Assembly (NCBI RefSeq): GCF_900445235.1
Contig: NZ_UFSM01000001.1
Coordinates: 2,061,501 to 2,125,500 of the forward strand
From: Aminobacter aminovorans
Lineage (GTDB): Bacteria; Pseudomonadota; Alphaproteobacteria; Rhizobiales; Rhizobiaceae
Length of the DNA: 64,000 nt
Direction of reading: 5' to 3'
Positions 25,421 to 32,722 of this stretch are shown here, one piece after another. The notes beneath the pieces are model-generated. The model worked only from the letters and a program-made list of their open reading frames with translations. It had not been told where the DNA came from and ran no database searches. A program made the position numbers and the translations under genes. Each line of letters opens with the position of its first letter. Position 1 is the first letter of the stretch.

Positions 25421-26545
25421 TTACCTGCTGAGCACGTTGCTGATCTCGACGAGGTTCGAGCGGACGCGCAGGATGTAGAAGCCCATGGTGATCAGGTGCG
25501 AGGGCATGAACCAGCCATCCTCAGCGCCGTTGGAGACGATGAAGGGCTGGATGTTCAGCGCCGAGCGCGTCTGCTGCTCCATCGTGTCCCACAGATTGTC
25601 GAGATTGCGGGTGCGCAGCACGTCCTCGAAGTCGGCATGCGTTGCCTTAAGCAGGCCGTAATAGCCGTAGAGCTGGCCATAGGCGAACCAGAAGCGGTCG
25701 TCGGCGCGCGGGTCGAACCAGCCATTGTTGAAGTTCTCGGCCCGATCCTTGAGGATCGCAGATGTCGCGCCGATGTCGTTGGAGATGCGGTCGATGAACT
25801 GGATCAGATTGTCGGCGCGGGCGTCGAACACCGCCTGGCACTTCTCCAGTCGGGCGTTGAAATTGTTGAGGCTCTTGATGGCCGAACGGTAATAGCTCGG
25901 CGTCGGCGTTTTCGGGCCGAATGGCGTCAGGCCGAAATACCAGGTGTATTCATCGAACTGCATGTTGCCGCGGGCATCCTGCAGGTCGGAATCGACCTGG
26001 CTGGTACCGCGCACGCGACCGAGATTGTCGGCGAGTTCGGTCGTCGTGCGGCGGATTGCTTGGTTGATGCCGCGCTGGAACGAGGCCTTGTTGTCGAGGA
26101 ACGGCGTGTGATCCCATGGCAGGCCGAACAGGCCGGTCTTGTAGAGGATCATCGACGAGATCCAGGCGTTCTCGTTGACGTTGAAATTGGTCAGTTCGGC
26201 GGAGATGTCGGCGATCGCCGAGCGGCCGCAGGTCTTGGCCGTGTCGGTGCCGCCGCCAGCGACGATCTGCTCGCCGGCCGAGACGTTGCGGTTCTCGAAA
26301 TTATGCTTGGCGACATAGTCGGGATCGAAATTCGTCCAGGCTTGCGTGTTCCAGATGAAGTAGCCGTAGAGCGCAACCAGTCCGGCGATCGATGCACCAA
26401 CGACGGTCTTGAGGATGAAGCCGCGCTGCAGGTACCAGCGGCCAAGCCACATGAACGGCCACAGCAACAGACCGATGACGAAGCCGAGGCCGCGGCCGAT
26501 CAGCTGGAATATCCGGGTGAAGAAATTCACGATCGGATCAAGCAT
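25421..26545 (-). CDS. DUF2333 family membrane protein
   Basis: 374 aa from the ATG at 26545, which follows GAGGGGG. The N-terminus has an amphipathic or membrane region (LIGRGLGFVIGLLLWPFMWL) and a clear helix (TVVGASIAGLVALYGYFIW). The remaining ~300 residues look extracytoplasmic, with motifs NENAWISSMILYKTGLFGLP and FDEYTWYFGLTPFGPKTP. I recall this as DUF2333, a family without assigned function. It is the last gene of a tight four-gene set with the AAA ATPase. An anchored periplasmic domain could receive whatever the ATPase module remodels. Confidence 0.8.
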   Translation of the reverse strand: MLDPIVNFFTRIFQLIGRGLGFVIGLLLWPFMWLGRWYLQRGFILKTVVGASIAGLVALYGYFIWNTQAWTNFDPDYVAKHNFENRNVSAGEQIVAGGGTDTAKTCGRSAIADISAELTNFNVNENAWISSMILYKTGLFGLPWDHTPFLDNKASFQRGINQAIRRTTTELADNLGRVRGTSQVDSDLQDARGNMQFDEYTWYFGLTPFGPKTPTPSYYRSAIKSLNNFNARLEKCQAVFDARADNLIQFIDRISNDIGATSAILKDRAENFNNGWFDPRADDRFWFAYGQLYGYYGLLKATHADFEDVLRTRNLDNLWDTMEQQTRSALNIQPFIVSNGAEDGWFMPSHLITMGFYILRVRSNLVEISNVLSR

Positions 26546-26556
26546 ATGGAACCCCC

Positions 26557-27843
26557 TCAGTCGGTCAGGCCGTAGAGCTGTGCGCGGAACGCCGCCTTGT
26601 CTTTCAGATATGTGCTTTTCAGCGTGTCCACAACATTGGATCGCCACGTCTCGTTGAGCTCTTCATAGTCCTTGTAGAAACCCTGCTTGTTGAAGACGTA
26701 GCGCGAGACGAAATCCGACGGCACGAATTCGGAGATCAACCGGTTGGTCAGCCAGGCGTCGGGATGGTCGGTCTTGGCGCGCACCACGAGGAAGCGGTGC
26801 AGCGGAAACACTTCTTCCAGCCGCAACTGGCCCAACTGGGCTATTTCGCGCTTGGCGCCGTTTAGGAAGGGAAAAGTGCCGTCGCGGTTGATGGCATCGG
26901 CATGGCTGTGAATCCAGGTCTGCAGCCATACCTTGTCGACCTTGCCGATGTCGCGCTTCGGCTCAGCTTCGCGGATCAGCGCGCGCACCGCCATTTCGGC
27001 GCGGTGTTCGAGATAGCCGGAGCTTTCGACCCACGAGGCGCGGGGCAGGTCGAGCCGGCCGGTCGAGGCCAGGAACTTGAACACCTTGTCGGCGTCCTTG
27101 ATCGAGAGGTAGCTCACCTGCCACGGCCGCGAACGGCGGAAGCCGGGCGCCGACGGGTCGGAAATGACGGTTGTCACATCGGGATCGACGAAGACGTAGA
27201 GCCCGCCGAAATGGCTGGTCCAGAAGGCGTTGTGACGGAAGATCACCTGGTCGGGCACCAGCGCGTTCTCGCGGATGTCGCCGCAGACCTTGGCGAGCTC
27301 GACCATGCGTTGGAGCATGGTGTCGTCGCGCCAGGCTTCGGGCTCCTGCCTGAGCTTGTCGACAAGCTTGCCGAGCTCGGCCGCCTTGCCAAGCACATCC
27401 TCGGCCGACAGCACGCGGAACTCGACCTGGCTGATGGACAACAGGTCTTCGATGTCCTCGACCTTGGACACCGAATCCTCGATCTCGCCGTAGATCACGT
27501 CCTTGATCGTCAGCGCGTCGATGGCGCGCTGGTTCTTCGACATGAATTCGAAAAGCAGCTGCGAGGTGTTGGAGAATGCCGTGTGCACGACCGGCAAGTC
27601 GATCTGCGACGGCGTCAGGATGATGAAACGGCGGTTGACCTCGTTGGGGTCGAGATACTGGTAGTCGCCCAGTTCCTCGGCGATTTCGGGCGAGAATCCG
27701 GTGCGATCGATCTCGAAGCTTTTCAGCTTCGTCGGCTCCAGCCCGAACGCCTTCAGCGCCTTGTTGTAGCGATCGACCAGATGCGGTTCATCGACCGGCA
27801 GGAGGCGACCGTAGATGAGCTCGTTGTCGCGGAGGAGGTCCAT
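26557..27843 (-). CDS. DUF6638-like protein of unknown function
   Basis: 428 aa, no signal peptide and no membrane helix; probably cytoplasmic. It starts MDLLRDNELIYGRLLPVDEP and holds a long central segment (TIKDVIYGEIEDSVSKVEDI, VDKLRQEPEAWRDDTMLQRM). I recognise no catalytic motif. From memory it matches the rhizobial DUF6638 family, but I cannot confirm this. Its start is one base after the stop of the small two-TM protein and its stop is 11 bases before the DUF2333 start, so it belongs to the AAA ATPase operon. Confidence 0.75.
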   Translation of the reverse strand: MDLLRDNELIYGRLLPVDEPHLVDRYNKALKAFGLEPTKLKSFEIDRTGFSPEIAEELGDYQYLDPNEVNRRFIILTPSQIDLPVVHTAFSNTSQLLFEFMSKNQRAIDALTIKDVIYGEIEDSVSKVEDIEDLLSISQVEFRVLSAEDVLGKAAELGKLVDKLRQEPEAWRDDTMLQRMVELAKVCGDIRENALVPDQVIFRHNAFWTSHFGGLYVFVDPDVTTVISDPSAPGFRRSRPWQVSYLSIKDADKVFKFLASTGRLDLPRASWVESSGYLEHRAEMAVRALIREAEPKRDIGKVDKVWLQTWIHSHADAINRDGTFPFLNGAKREIAQLGQLRLEEVFPLHRFLVVRAKTDHPDAWLTNRLISEFVPSDFVSRYVFNKQGFYKDYEELNETWRSNVVDTLKSTYLKDKAAFRAQLYGLTD

Positions 27844-27844
27844 G

Positions 27845-28162
27845 TCAGAACATTCCTTCCAGCGGACGCATGCGGTCCAGCCTTTGAGGCAAGATCAGGT
27901 GGACAAAAATCAATAAAACAGAAGCGCCAATTACATATGGCCAAAGTTCCATCATCATGGATTTTGTTCGCCTCTTTAACCGCTGCATTTCACTGTTGGC
28001 GGGGTGTCCAGGATGAAGCGTTTGGAGAAGCTTAATGTCTTCCGCTGCTTCTCTATTCCAAACACGTGCCGCCAGAGCGAACAAATAGATGGAGGTCAAA
28101 AGAGAGATTGCGTTCTCGATAAGCTGAGAAGTGCTTAGTTCGGTCAGTGACGCCTCAAGCAT
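27845..28162 (-). CDS. Small two-TM protein, unusually AT-rich
   Basis: 105 aa. Two hydrophobic helices are visible, SLLTSIYLFALAARVW (about residues 20-35) and LWPYVIGASVLLIFVHLILP (73-92), separated by a charged cytoplasmic loop ending in RLKRRTKSMM. The start overlaps the AAA ATPase stop by 8 bases and the stop is one base before the DUF6638-like start, so it is embedded in the operon. By my count four lines of it (27901-28140) contain about 45% G+C against about 63% around it. The codon use therefore differs from its neighbours, as after transfer or replacement. Function unknown. Confidence 0.75.
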   Translation of the reverse strand: MLEASLTELSTSQLIENAISLLTSIYLFALAARVWNREAAEDIKLLQTLHPGHPANSEMQRLKRRTKSMMMELWPYVIGASVLLIFVHLILPQRLDRMRPLEGMF

Positions 28163-30065
28163 TCCACAGCCCCTTCGCCTTCAGCTCCTCCATCTCCTTC
28201 GCTGCGCGTTCGCGCAGACGCGCATCACGGAGCAGCTTCGACACTGCGGCATCGTCTGATTTATCGGAGTAGCGGAACTCGCTATCGGCGTAGCGGTTGA
28301 TCTCCTGCATCACCATGTCCATCGAGAACGGGCCGCGCAGTTCTTCGATCATCGCCTTCTTCTCGTCGTAACCCTTGTGCATGAAGGCCTCCTGCTTCTC
28401 GAACCACTCGTCAGGCAGCTCGATGTCCATGGCGCGCATCTTGATCGCGTCGGTGACGTTCTTGATGGCGCGACCGGTGAAGCGCGGCTCGGCTTCCTTG
28501 ATCATGTGCAGGTAGGTGCCGACGTCGGCCAGCGTCTTGGGCGCGCCATTGTCCTTCATGAAGCGGTCATAGACCTTTTCGAGCCCCTCTTCCTGCGGCT
28601 TGGCGTGTTCCTCATAGGCCTCGGTCACGGCGCGCTGGATCTCCTGCGCGGCGTAGAGCTCGTGCTCGCCGAGCGGGATCTTGTGGTTCTTGCCGGCGAG
28701 AAGGACGAAAATGTCGATGTAGTCGTCGCGGGTCTGCGGTCCATCGACCAGCCAGCGAGCGCCGGCGCGCTGGCGAAGCGCATCGTCGACATTCTCGGGA
28801 TAGTTGGAGAACATGCCGAACGAGCAGTTGCCGCGCACCACGGTGCCGGCGCCGGCGAAGGCGTCCATCAATACGCCGGTAATTTCCTGCTGGCCGGCAG
28901 AGGCGCGGTCGTCGGAGCGCTTGGCCGCGACCTGGTCGATGTCGTCGATGGTGCCAAAGCCGATGGCGCGCGGGTTGAGCACGTTGTTGATAAACTGGCG
29001 GCAGTTCTGGCCCGACTTGCCCTGGTAGGATGAAATCTGATCGACGCCGAAATTCTCATAGGCGAAGGGGTAGCCGGCGACCTGGCAGTAATTGTTGACC
29101 AGGCCTGCGATCATCTGGATCAGCGTCGTCTTGCCGGTGCCCGGCGCGCCGTCACCGATGAAGGTGAACAGGAAGCCGCCGAGCTCGACGAACGGGTTCA
29201 GTTCGCGGTCGAAATCATAGGCCATCAGCATCTTGGCCAGCCGGACCGACTGGAACTTGGCGATGTGGTTGCCGACGACCTCCTGCGGCTTCTTGAAGGT
29301 CATCACCAGCGGCTTCGACTTCTTGCCTGGCGCCACGTCGAAGCCGTCGAGGGTGAAGTCGTCGGCATCGATGCGGATATGGGCGTTCTCGAAGGCGCCA
29401 ATGCCGTCGAAGCGGCCCTTGCGCTGGAGCAGCCCTTCGATCGCGACACGGCCGAAGGCGCGGCCGCGTGTCAAAAGATCGGCGTCGTCCTTGGCGCCCG
29501 ACAGTGCCCGGTCGAGACCTGAAACGATCGACTTCACCGCATCCTGCGGCGTGTCGAACAGGAAGTCGGGTTCGCTTACGTCATTGGGCGCCTCCCCGTC
29601 GCTGTCGATCAGCTGTGCGAGGTAGGAGGCAAGGGTAAAGCCCGCGACATAGGCCGAGGCCGAAAGCAGCTTCTTGAAATGGCCGGCTTCGTCGCCCTCC
29701 AGCGGGCTGCGCGCGTTCTTGGCCTGCAGCGCCTCGAGATCGGTCGAGCGCGAAAACACGTCCGAAACGGCAAGCGCCACCGATATGCCGCGTCGGGCGC
29801 GGAACAGAAGCGTGTGCTGCGGGATCGACATCAGCTGGTCGTCGGGGCGTATGGCCGTGACGGTCTTCTGCAACTCGACTTCGCGTGTCTTGCGGATCGA
29901 GCCGGCCGACACCGTCGAAACGAAGCGCCTGTTGGTGCCGGCAAGTGCCGTGCCCGACTGGCCAGAGGAATCCTCCAGCACGACGATGCGGGTGATGAAG
30001 CTTTGCGCGGTGGCGCGGTGCTTTTCGATATCGGCTTCGGAAATCGTGGTCAGGCCGGTGTCCAT
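28155..30065 (-). CDS. AAA family ATPase with long N-terminal domain
   Basis: 636 aa. The AAA module lies at about residues 295-450: Walker A GAPGTGKTT (306-314), Walker B-like strand IGFGTIDDID with Asp-Asp (374-375) where most AAA proteins have Asp-Glu, sensor-1 Asn in FSNYPE (421), and an arginine-rich ALRQRAGAR (429-437) at the finger position. About 290 residues precede it without a domain I recognise. The C-terminal ~180 residues are mostly helical and end in a charged coil (RERAAKEMEELKAK). It resembles remodelling AAA+ proteins more than DNA-replication ones. The operon partners are a two-TM protein, a DUF6638-like protein and DUF2333. The substrate is unknown. Confidence 0.82.
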   Translation of the reverse strand: MDTGLTTISEADIEKHRATAQSFITRIVVLEDSSGQSGTALAGTNRRFVSTVSAGSIRKTREVELQKTVTAIRPDDQLMSIPQHTLLFRARRGISVALAVSDVFSRSTDLEALQAKNARSPLEGDEAGHFKKLLSASAYVAGFTLASYLAQLIDSDGEAPNDVSEPDFLFDTPQDAVKSIVSGLDRALSGAKDDADLLTRGRAFGRVAIEGLLQRKGRFDGIGAFENAHIRIDADDFTLDGFDVAPGKKSKPLVMTFKKPQEVVGNHIAKFQSVRLAKMLMAYDFDRELNPFVELGGFLFTFIGDGAPGTGKTTLIQMIAGLVNNYCQVAGYPFAYENFGVDQISSYQGKSGQNCRQFINNVLNPRAIGFGTIDDIDQVAAKRSDDRASAGQQEITGVLMDAFAGAGTVVRGNCSFGMFSNYPENVDDALRQRAGARWLVDGPQTRDDYIDIFVLLAGKNHKIPLGEHELYAAQEIQRAVTEAYEEHAKPQEEGLEKVYDRFMKDNGAPKTLADVGTYLHMIKEAEPRFTGRAIKNVTDAIKMRAMDIELPDEWFEKQEAFMHKGYDEKKAMIEELRGPFSMDMVMQEINRYADSEFRYSDKSDDAAVSKLLRDARLRERAAKEMEELKAKGLWNA

Positions 30066-30107
30066 CAGATCTTTCCCGCTATCGGTGCGTTAATCCTGCA
30101 AGGGCTT

Positions 30108-30246
30108 CTCCCACTCCGCCTCGCTCCGCTGAGCACCTCTCTCCCCTTCGGAGGGAGAGGAAAGGCGCGGCGCTGGGTGTCGGCATTCTCTCTCCTCCAT
30201 CGAACGGGGGAGAGGTGTCGAGGCGAAGCCGAGATGGAGTGGGGGG
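30108..30246. repeat. Intergenic inverted repeat
   Basis: The left arm around CTCCCACTCCGCCTCGCTCC (from 30108) is matched in reverse complement by AAGCCGAGATGGAGTGGGGG near 30227-30246. An inner pair is ACCTCTCTCCCC with GGGGGAGAGGT. The arms are imperfect. It looks like one of the dispersed palindromic elements common in mesorhizobial intergenic DNA, between the AAA gene and the upstream unknown gene. Confidence 0.65.
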
Positions 30247-30260
30247 CAATGCCTTTGCCC

Positions 30261-31409
30261 TCAAACATCGCTGATCACCTGTCCCTTCGACAGGATGTGC
30301 ACCTTGTAGCCCGCAAAAATCTTCTCGGCCTCGCCGGCGGCATAGAGCGCCTGGTAGGCCTCGTGCGGGATCAGTGCGTGCCTCTCGTAGCTCGACACGC
30401 CCTGGCGCGCGGCTTCGAGGTCGTCGGTGTTGATGAAGAATTCCTCGCTCGACGGCTCGCTCGACCACAAGCCCTTGCGGCCGGGCTTTTCGGCCTTGGA
30501 GTAGACCTCCTGGATGGTCCAGGTCAAAAGCCAGGCGTTTTCGGCCTTGCGCACCTTGGACAGCACCTCGCTGACCGTTGAATTATGCTCGGTGATGCCG
30601 GCCGAATAGAACGGTCCCAGCACCATGCGCCTGAGCTGCTTTGGGTGCAGGTCGGGAAAATCCTTGTCGAGGTTGGTTGCGACCGTCAGCGGCGACAGCG
30701 AATAGGCCGAGTTCTTCTCGGTGAAGTCGTCGAAGCGGTGGGCGAGATCGGGGTTGAGCAGGCCGTCGACCGGCAGCGGAATCTCGATCCTCTCGTTGAG
30801 CTTGCCGCTTGCGGTGTCGACAAGCTGCTCGACCATCGCCTCCGATGAATCCTCGACGGTCGCCATATAGATCAAGGGCAGGTTGGCGGTGCCGTCGAAG
30901 CTACCCCAGTGGACGAGATAATAGGGCCGCATCGACTTGGGATTGACCGATACCTTGGCTGTTTGCGCCAGGATGAAGGGCGAGAAGGTCGAGCCGTCCT
31001 TGACGTCCTCGAGATAGAGCCGCTCGGCCATCGAGCGCTGCAGCGCCTCGGGAAACTCCTTGTGGCGGAGGATGAAGTCGGCCATCTCCTCGCGCAGTTC
31101 GCCCGGCGGTGGGATGCTGGCCAGCCGCTGCGCCGCCGTCTTGCGGTCGTTTTCCAGCTCGAGCACGTTCTGGAACACCGGGAAGCCGCTTTCGGCACGC
31201 GAAATCTTGAACGTCTCCATGAAACCGAGACGGTTGCGCCAGCAGGCGAAGGACCGCTCCAGCCGCGAGATGTAGGCAGCCGCCACCTTCGCCACGATGC
31301 CGTGTCGATAGAGCGGCGAGCGGTCGTCGCGCATGAAGATTTCAAGCCCGCTGAGTGCCGCCGCAATCGCGTCGAAGTAGCGGACAGCGGGATCGTCGGT
31401 GGGGGTCAT
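30261..31409 (-). CDS. Conserved-looking protein of unknown function in the AAA operon
   Basis: About 382 aa from the ATG at 31409 (MTPTDDPAVRYFDAIAAAL); an ATG at 31433 is possible. There is no signal peptide or membrane helix. The N-terminal half is helical (YISRLERSFACWRNRLGF). The centre has YYLVHWGSFDGTANLPLIYM and the C-terminal part KAENAWLLTWTIQEVYSKAE. No catalytic motif is recognisable. It lies between the coiled-coil gene and the AAA ATPase on the same strand, but is separated from each by about 200 bases holding inverted repeats, so cotranscription is less certain than for the four genes downstream. Confidence 0.7.
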   Translation of the reverse strand: MTPTDDPAVRYFDAIAAALSGLEIFMRDDRSPLYRHGIVAKVAAAYISRLERSFACWRNRLGFMETFKISRAESGFPVFQNVLELENDRKTAAQRLASIPPPGELREEMADFILRHKEFPEALQRSMAERLYLEDVKDGSTFSPFILAQTAKVSVNPKSMRPYYLVHWGSFDGTANLPLIYMATVEDSSEAMVEQLVDTASGKLNERIEIPLPVDGLLNPDLAHRFDDFTEKNSAYSLSPLTVATNLDKDFPDLHPKQLRRMVLGPFYSAGITEHNSTVSEVLSKVRKAENAWLLTWTIQEVYSKAEKPGRKGLWSSEPSSEEFFINTDDLEAARQGVSSYERHALIPHEAYQALYAAGEAEKIFAGYKVHILSKGQVISDV

Positions 31410-31451
31410 GAACAAAGTCTCCGACGCAGGCACTCGACGTTGCCGCCGTCC

Positions 31452-31588
31452 GGCCTGCCGGCCATCTTCCCCTCAAGGGGAGAGATTAGGCGCTGGCGAG
31501 GGTGTCGCCAAGCAGCGACGAAGAAGTTTGGGCGGCGATGGACCCGACAGCTGATCCCCCCCTTTCTGGGGGAGATGGCCGGCAGGCC
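31452..31588. repeat. Intergenic inverted repeat with GGCCGGCAGG arms
   Basis: GGCCTGCCGGCCATCTTCCC (from 31452) is matched by the reverse complement of GGGGAGATGGCCGGCAGGCC (ending 31588) with one mismatch. About 95 bases lie between, containing CTCAAGGGGAGAG and CCTTTCTGGGGG sub-hairpins. This is a familiar type of rhizobial dispersed element. It sits between the unknown gene and the coiled-coil gene. Confidence 0.75.
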
Positions 31589-31633
31589 AGAGGGGGCCGC
31601 GACAGGGCGCAACATTTGCAGATGCTGGTCGGT

Positions 31634-32722
31634 TTACGACTGCACGTAGTCCGAAGCGTTGTGCTTCTTCAGCACCTCGTCGAAGCGGCGGGCGAAGGCG
31701 TCGTCGGCCAGCTTCTTGCGGCGCTGGATGTCCGCTGTGGCCACCATGTTCTTCTCGTGCAGTTCGAGCAGGTCGCCGATGTGCTTCTGCGCGGCGGCGC
31801 CGATACCGGCCATGGTCTCTTCGGCGGTGTTATCGACCTTCGAGCCCAGCGTGTTGATCTTGTGGGCAACGTCCTGCTGCGCTGCCGTCTTCAGCGAGTC
31901 TTCCAGCGCCTTGTAGAGCACGATGCGTTGCTCGGTATCGATGGTCAGCTTGTTGATCAGCGTTGCCTGGGCAGCGATCTGGTTGTTCAGCGAATCGACG
32001 AAGGTCTGGAACATCGAGGTATAGCGTTCGAGCGTCTGGCTCTCGGCCAGGATCTCCTGTTCCTTCGCCTGCTTCTCGTTATATTCGGTGGCGAGCTTGG
32101 AGCGCTCGGATTCGAGCTCGGTGCGTTCCTTCTGGCTGGTCGACGCCGCGATCTTGTTTTCGATGTCGAGCAGCAGCGGGTTCAGTTCCTCAATGCGCTT
32201 CTGGGTCGCTTCGAGGTTGGACATCGTCACCTTGCGGCGCTCGATCACCTGGGAAAGGCTGGCTTCCGAGGTCTTATAGCGCTCGTCGAGCACCTGCTTC
32301 TGGGCCTTCAGGATGCCGACGATGGTGTCCGACTTGACCAGCAGTTCCTGCAGATTGCCGGCCAGCGACATGTTGCGAACGCGGTCGGTGCGCATGCGCT
32401 GCTTGCTGGCGTCGGAGAAGATGCCGACGAAGGTTTCCCAGCCGGTGAAGCTCTTCATGCTCTCGAATTCCGAGCCGAAGACGTTGGTGGCGTCTTCCAG
32501 GCCGATGATGAGGTCGGCGATGTTGCCCTCCATCACCTTCTGCTGCTTGAGCACGTCCTGGATGCGCGCATTCTCGATGTCGAAGTCGGAGGCGCCGATC
32601 TTGGCGTCGGTCGCGGCAATCTTGTCGAGCACGGTGCCCGATTGCTCGATCTTGCTCCGCATGTCGTCCACGACCTGCTTTGTCTTGGCGATCTCGGCAT
32701 CGAAATTCTGCAGCGTTGCCAT
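31634..32722 (-). CDS. Coiled-coil protein of unknown function (TelA-like architecture?)
   Basis: 362 aa, almost entirely helical, start after GGAGGAACGT. There is no signal peptide or membrane helix. Heptad-rich stretches run through VLDERYKTSEASLSQVIERR, IEELNPLLLDIENKI and ERTELESERSKLATEYNEKQ. The end (HEKNMVATADIQRRKKLADD) loosely recalls the toxic-anion-resistance TelA/KlaA family, but the likeness is weak and I would not assign it. It heads the gene set that leads to the AAA ATPase and could be the scaffold or substrate that the ATPase acts on. Confidence 0.7.
   Translation of the reverse strand: MATLQNFDAEIAKTKQVVDDMRSKIEQSGTVLDKIAATDAKIGASDFDIENARIQDVLKQQKVMEGNIADLIIGLEDATNVFGSEFESMKSFTGWETFVGIFSDASKQRMRTDRVRNMSLAGNLQELLVKSDTIVGILKAQKQVLDERYKTSEASLSQVIERRKVTMSNLEATQKRIEELNPLLLDIENKIAASTSQKERTELESERSKLATEYNEKQAKEQEILAESQTLERYTSMFQTFVDSLNNQIAAQATLINKLTIDTEQRIVLYKALEDSLKTAAQQDVAHKINTLGSKVDNTAEETMAGIGAAAQKHIGDLLELHEKNMVATADIQRRKKLADDAFARRFDEVLKKHNASDYVQS

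Follow-up and report, generated by a model that had tools for sequence, protein, structure and literature searches.

Do four tightly packed genes in a 64,000-nucleotide stretch of the Aminobacter aminovorans genome (contig NZ_UFSM01000001.1, positions 2,061,501 to 2,125,500; hereafter the window) form an AAA ATPase system that transmits ATPase work across the inner membrane? A sequence-only reading of the window, which lies on a 5.0-Mb contig within a 5.9-Mb genome, had proposed so for genes encoding an AAA ATPase, a small protein with two transmembrane (TM) stretches, a DUF6638 protein and a DUF2333 protein. The four open reading frames (ORFs) are indeed found on the minus strand with gaps of -8, 1 and 11 bases, and AAA, DUF6638 and DUF2333 are conserved together, no published role for the set having come to light. 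Comparison with related loci reveals that the unit consists of five same-strand genes and not of the four first described: two upstream genes, encoding a long-helix protein and a protein designated P5, had been overlooked, and because both belong to the set, the four-gene version is incomplete. Conversely, the two-TM gene is a local insert and no component of the machine. The features of the operon, in window coordinates, are the following.

31634..32722, minus strand: long-helix protein of 362 aa (P0006), whose gene opens the conserved operon; candidate client or scaffold
31763..31882, minus strand: residues 281-320 of the long-helix protein; proposed contact with the ATPase or an adaptor, from gaps in reduced copies
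31434..31633, no strand: gap between the long-helix gene and P5; palindromic repeat-like DNA, by eye
30261..31409, minus strand: P5, soluble, of unknown family, 382 aa from the ATG (a GTG ORF reaches 31433); proposed adaptor
30066..30260, no strand: gap between P5 and AAA; palindromic repeat-like DNA, by eye
28155..30065, minus strand: AAA ATPase of 636 aa; PF00004 at residues 306-436, E 8e-11
29127..29156, minus strand: Walker A sequence motif GDGAPGTGKT, residues 304-313 of the AAA protein
28941..28946, minus strand: Asp374-Asp375 of the Walker B (GTIDDID) of the AAA protein, Asp replacing the usual Glu
27844-28154: AAA/DUF6638 junction, the insertion slot, which holds the two-TM gene in the window
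27845..28162, minus strand: two-TM gene, 105 aa; variable cargo of the AAA/DUF6638 slot, not a machine component
26557..27843, minus strand: DUF6638 protein of 428 aa, soluble; PF20343, E 3.7e-71; proposed adaptor
25421..26545, minus strand: DUF2333 protein, 374 aa from the ATG (a GTG ORF of 408 aa is also present); PF10095, E 7.5e-23

The conserved order, on one strand, is long-helix, P5, AAA, DUF6638 and DUF2333. In a first set of 21 loci (20 fetched relatives and the window) the first four genes were present in every case and DUF2333 in 17. All five occurred in order and on the same strand in 71 of 80 compared loci, which are the best 80 of at least 526 confirmed ones and not a random sample; the long-helix protein was found in 74 and P5 in 76 of these. 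Eight of the nine exceptions stop at a contig edge and the ninth (L152, from Pseudogemmobacter) is devoid of DUF2333. The hosts comprise Rhizobiaceae, Phyllobacteriaceae, Ahrensiaceae, other Hyphomicrobiales, Pseudogemmobacter (Paracoccaceae) and a single genome outside the class (G339, the source of L221). As to the co-conservation expected for all four original genes, the part concerning AAA, DUF6638 and DUF2333 stands, their grouping being more than chance; the two-TM protein was met in none of the 80 loci and, among the 21, in the window only.

In all ten full-length loci without DUF2333 (L074, L075, L076, L078, L152 and L221-L225, three of which are seeds of the profile), DUF6638 is followed by a gene for a DUF1523-type membrane protein; the sole copy scanned, that of L078, matches DUF1523 at E 6.5e-68. 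An envelope-protein gene thus follows DUF6638 in both versions of the full set, and the expectation that the ATPase genes travel with such a gene is borne out by the loci compared. The same does not hold for the idea that ATPase work passes through the inner membrane: no TM stretch is present in any of the four core proteins, and the envelope partner varies, being DUF2333 in most loci and DUF1523-like in ten others. What emerges, with its gene membership corrected, is a compact AAA system that is kept in many lineages and has apparently not been described before.

The AAA protein, whose nearest relatives are Aminobacter AAA proteins, is composed of an N-terminal region of ~280 aa without family match and a classical AAA core; motif and scans agree with the initial description of an uncharacterised N-terminal region and an Asp-Asp Walker B. 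Since the Pfam AAA score (42.9 bits, cut-off 21.2) exceeds the cut-off despite the Asp-Asp pair, the protein is classed with the AAA proteins, its Walker B being a variant. The Walker A Gly, Lys and Thr are invariant across 64 aligned rows, the window's included, all of which also carry Asp-Asp in place of the classical Asp-Glu ending. Equally invariant are Asn421, Arg431, Arg433 and Arg437, of which we take the first to be the sensor-1 residue and the others to be Arg fingers located in the second region of homology. The protein hence resembles classical AAA ATPases (Rpt/PAN, i-AAA, Cdc48/Afg2) in its Walker A, Walker B, sensor-1-like Asn and conserved Arg, and differs from them in the Asp-Asp pair, in the unmatched N-terminal region, in the absence of a protease gene from the operon and in having partners without known function.

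The DUF6638 and DUF2333 assignments proved correct, the two proteins being members of PF20343 (240.7 bits, cut-off 27) and PF10095 (81.4 bits, cut-off 22), which Pfam names as families of unknown function or uncharacterised. A literature search found no paper on DUF6638, and the literature passages found call DUF2333 uncharacterised. Hydropathy confirms the two TM stretches of the two-TM protein and gives DUF2333 a single one (residues 42-60); the other operon proteins, DUF6638 among them, have none. The DUF2333 protein also possesses a domain of ~310 residues, probably periplasmic, and its Cys106 and Cys236 are invariant in 13 aligned rows. Pfam and NCBIfam scans of the window proteins gave no match over cut-off for the long-helix protein or P5, nor did Pfam for the two-TM protein; a sequence search of the PDB gave none for P5 at E<=1, and DUF6638 had no PDB match at E<=0.001. 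AlphaFold2 modelled the DUF6638 protein with pLDDT 89.4 and pTM 0.83, and the long-helix protein as all helical, with pLDDT 72.6 and pTM 0.54.

Presence of these genes across genomes is nested, DUF2333 being the most widespread, followed by the long-helix protein and then by the AAA-P5-DUF6638 block. This follows from the counts in a family sample of 199 genomes, where DUF6638 stood for the whole block: DUF2333 was found in 156 genomes, the long-helix protein in 123 and DUF6638 in 117. The latter two occurred together in 116 genomes and were both missing from 75 (Fisher p 2.6e-45, not corrected for kinship), and every carrier of either also has DUF2333. Seven genomes have the long-helix protein without DUF6638 (G164, G387, G527, G538, G672, G701 and G730) and one shows the reverse (G704); completeness is 68% for G672 and 83% for G704. 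In a phylum sample of 299 genomes all 20 DUF6638 carriers were among the 24 with a long-helix protein, and in an order sample of 150 all 27 AAA carriers were among the 28 with DUF6638, the 28th being G234; the AAA match of G274 is a 37-residue fragment only. DUF6638 was met in 2 of 142 genomes of a class sample. Taken together, the case for the gene set and its joint inheritance is strong. As a separate observation, DUF6638 matches with one internal stop occur in G696, G704, G605, G617, G571, G710, G629 and G743; in two of them (L244 and L245) the match simply overruns the gene's own stop codon.

Joint loss is seen in seven reduced loci from four genera (L217-L220, L240, L241 and L228), where the long-helix gene adjoins DUF2333 and no AAA, P5 or DUF6638 lies within the fetched stretch. 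L228 belongs to G584, where a divergent long-helix gene came to light when 16 of the 32 DUF2333-only genomes were inspected at ORF level. A whole-genome search of G164, one of the reduced-locus genomes, likewise found no AAA gene. When the seven reduced long-helix copies were aligned with 21 full ones and compared in 20-residue blocks, the gap fraction in the reduced copies reached 0.56 at residues 281-300 and 0.44 at 301-320, compared to 0.00-0.29 in the other blocks. Full copies keep residues 281-320 conserved, and the adjoining block, 261-280, is the best conserved in them (0.85). A thymidine kinase gene precedes the operon in the window, and lies directly upstream of the long-helix gene in six of the seven reduced loci; of the other 15 DUF2333-only loci, 7 have it upstream and on the same strand. 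Given this shared neighbourhood, the locus often keeps a stable position, at which the ATPase module is gained and lost.

The mechanism is drawn from joint loss and from the erosion of a single block, so we advance it tentatively, at somewhat less than an even chance: a chromosomal AAA remodelling machine whose target would be the long-helix protein, at an anchor in the envelope. The AAA protein would form a ring that pulls on the long-helix protein, its putative client, or dismantles its assemblies, with P5 and DUF6638 as dedicated adaptors and with residues 281-320 of the client as the candidate contact with the ATPase module. The long-helix protein would itself act at the inner membrane together with DUF2333 or, in the other version, with the DUF1523-like protein, and the toxin and nuclease genes of the slot would be passenger cargo exploiting expression of the operon. 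NSF/SNARE and Vps4/ESCRT-III are analogies only. The 40-residue stretch makes such a mechanism directly testable.

Several points weigh against the remodelling machine. The reduced copies are also without part of residues 181-220 (gap fractions 0.29 and 0.26), and the loss of 281-320 may be general decay, the seven copies coming from four genera. The AlphaFold2 model of the long-helix protein is of modest confidence, as its pTM indicates, and the contacts among the machine proteins are predictions made from the genes. Furthermore, DUF2333 may be a mere frequent neighbour, because it can occur alone (32 of the 199 family-sample genomes have it with neither a long-helix protein nor DUF6638 found in the genome; 43 had none of the three) and because some lineages have a DUF1523-like gene in its place.

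We regard as unlikely, though by no means far-fetched, that the AAA module is instead an unfoldase serving the quality control of envelope or membrane proteins, for which the long-helix protein would be a scaffold or sensor and DUF2333 one docking site. By sequence, the PDB chains that match the AAA core best are those of the i-AAA protease and of proteasomal Rpt2, which would suit such a role, and the long-helix and DUF2333 genes persist together without the ATPase, as a scaffold could. Nevertheless, none of the five conserved genes matched a protease family in the family scans made, and a scaffold need not shed the 281-320 block upon loss of the ATPase.

The junction between AAA and DUF6638 is a recurrent intra-operon hotspot with fast turnover. 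Inserts of at least 200 bp were found there in 43 of the 80 loci, as compared with 14 of 73 between long-helix and P5, 7 of 73 between P5 and AAA, and 1 of 76 between DUF6638 and DUF2333. Junction sizes are bimodal: 37 loci have at most 69 bp (20 of these being overlaps of 1-13 bases) and none has 101-199 bp. With family calls Pfam-confirmed on one example per cargo type, 35 of the 43 inserts carry toxin-antitoxin or DUF559 endonuclease genes (DUF559 alone 11, Phd+PIN 9, Phd alone 1, ParE+Xre 7, ParE+RHH 7), and eight have no assignment. The cargo examples match the Phd, PIN, ParE, RHH, HTH_3 and DUF559/MTES_1575 families; unlike members of those families generally, the slot copies sit at one junction inside a conserved operon. 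Profiles seeded from the slot matched nothing in the flanks examined (377 kb on the upstream side, 349 kb on the downstream side) and one DUF559 in a P5-AAA gap. The GC content of the inserts is on average 4.1 points below that of the flanking genes, and lower in 39 of 43.

A quick AAA tree was built from 83 rows (80 loci, the window and two congeners), and some of its branches are long or open. On it the six slot states require at least 32 changes, versus a shuffled mean of 42.8. DUF559 requires 12 changes and Phd-PIN 10, of which starred branches force 9 in each case. Different ParE pairs occupy the slots of L136 and L141, which are near-identical sisters, and the L117 insert opens with what is, by eye, a near copy of the DUF6638 gene start, as if the junction had been duplicated. 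The hotspot offers a natural experiment on what makes toxin-antitoxin genes settle at particular places. In the DUF1523 version, the slots of L224 and L225 are also filled, one with a gene whose DUF4145/HEPN-like hits are sub-threshold, the other with a DUF3825 gene.

The two-TM gene of the window fits this picture of local insertion. Its GC content is 0.478 against a mean of 0.638 (SD 0.034), the two congeners (L246 and L247) have DUF559 in the same place, and a single relative (99%) was found among seven candidates scored; its proposed membership of the machine was accordingly abandoned. Other small two-TM proteins are encoded after DUF6638 or in the slot of relatives (L078 8757-9023, L225 14511-14777 and the L163 slot); the profile of the window's protein had no match in L163 or in the rest of the 80 loci.

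Could the slot be the purpose of the system rather than its passenger? A defence platform, in which the AAA module would sense a signal of infection or damage and the slot provide an exchangeable toxic effector, appears distinctly unlikely to us. The prevalence of toxin-antitoxin and DUF559 genes, the HEPN-like and DUF3825 genes of the DUF1523 version, and the number of slot-state changes are all consistent with it, as is the fact that in PADLOC the AAA core weakly matches TRIP13 (2.8e-5) and IetA (4.4e-4). Yet 37 of the 80 loci have no insert, the toxin is paired with its own partner in 23 of the 24 toxin-antitoxin slots (the 24th holding a lone Phd antitoxin), and the locus often stays beside thymidine kinase. 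Moreover, P0002-P0006 had no PADLOC match at E<=0.1 and those of P0001 are confined to the common AAA core, so the PADLOC models do not place the set in a known anti-phage system. In a related and slightly more doubtful scenario the slot is an effector bay, where lineages would swap toxins and the stably placed AAA module, as sensor and regulator, would control toxin or antitoxin; candidate effectors would be PIN, ParE, the HEPN-like protein, the DUF559 nuclease and orphan membrane proteins such as the window's. If true, the operon would serve as a resident platform for defence or stress whose effectors can be exchanged, and we know of no described system like it.

That the operon is a stress system of the TelA/PspA type, its long-helix protein having diverged from TelA or PspA, is very unlikely. 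TelA is a helical protein without TM stretch, and so is the long-helix protein, the C-terminal third of which is, by eye only, reminiscent of TelA. Profile-profile comparison with 18 TelA rows returned a probability of 1.1%, a search of the window's genome with the TelA model (PF05816) gave nothing at E<=0.001, and neither TelA nor PspA is among the 25 families listed of the 81 that 16 members matched in Pfam at E<=10. Some operon-bearing genomes (e.g. G022, G209, G245 and G276) have true TelA genes at other loci. PspA/Snf7 is not among the structural matches listed for the long-helix protein, a listing that does not exclude a PspA/ESCRT-III fold. Finally, that the genes are unrelated neighbours held together by chance or shared expression, as the separability of DUF2333 might suggest, is scarcely credible in view of their common order and strand across families and their joint presence and absence.

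The DUF559 genes of the slot, presumably Vsr-type endonucleases, display a further peculiarity: long inverted palindromes flank them. Palindrome scores of 27-52.5 were obtained for 10 of the 11 (L143, L151, L157, L158, L165, L168, L169, L171, L174 and L177), L167 giving no score; at 563 random places the 99% point was 14.5 and the maximum 45. Among the papers listed by literature searches, none evidently describes a palindrome-linked DUF559 unit. A wider set comprised 30 DUF559 loci (L248-L277) of 21 related genomes and included two slot copies; 17 of the 30 scored above 13.0, the 95% point of 168 other short ORFs (maximum 18). The association of DUF559 with long inverted palindromes suggests a palindrome-linked mobile unit.

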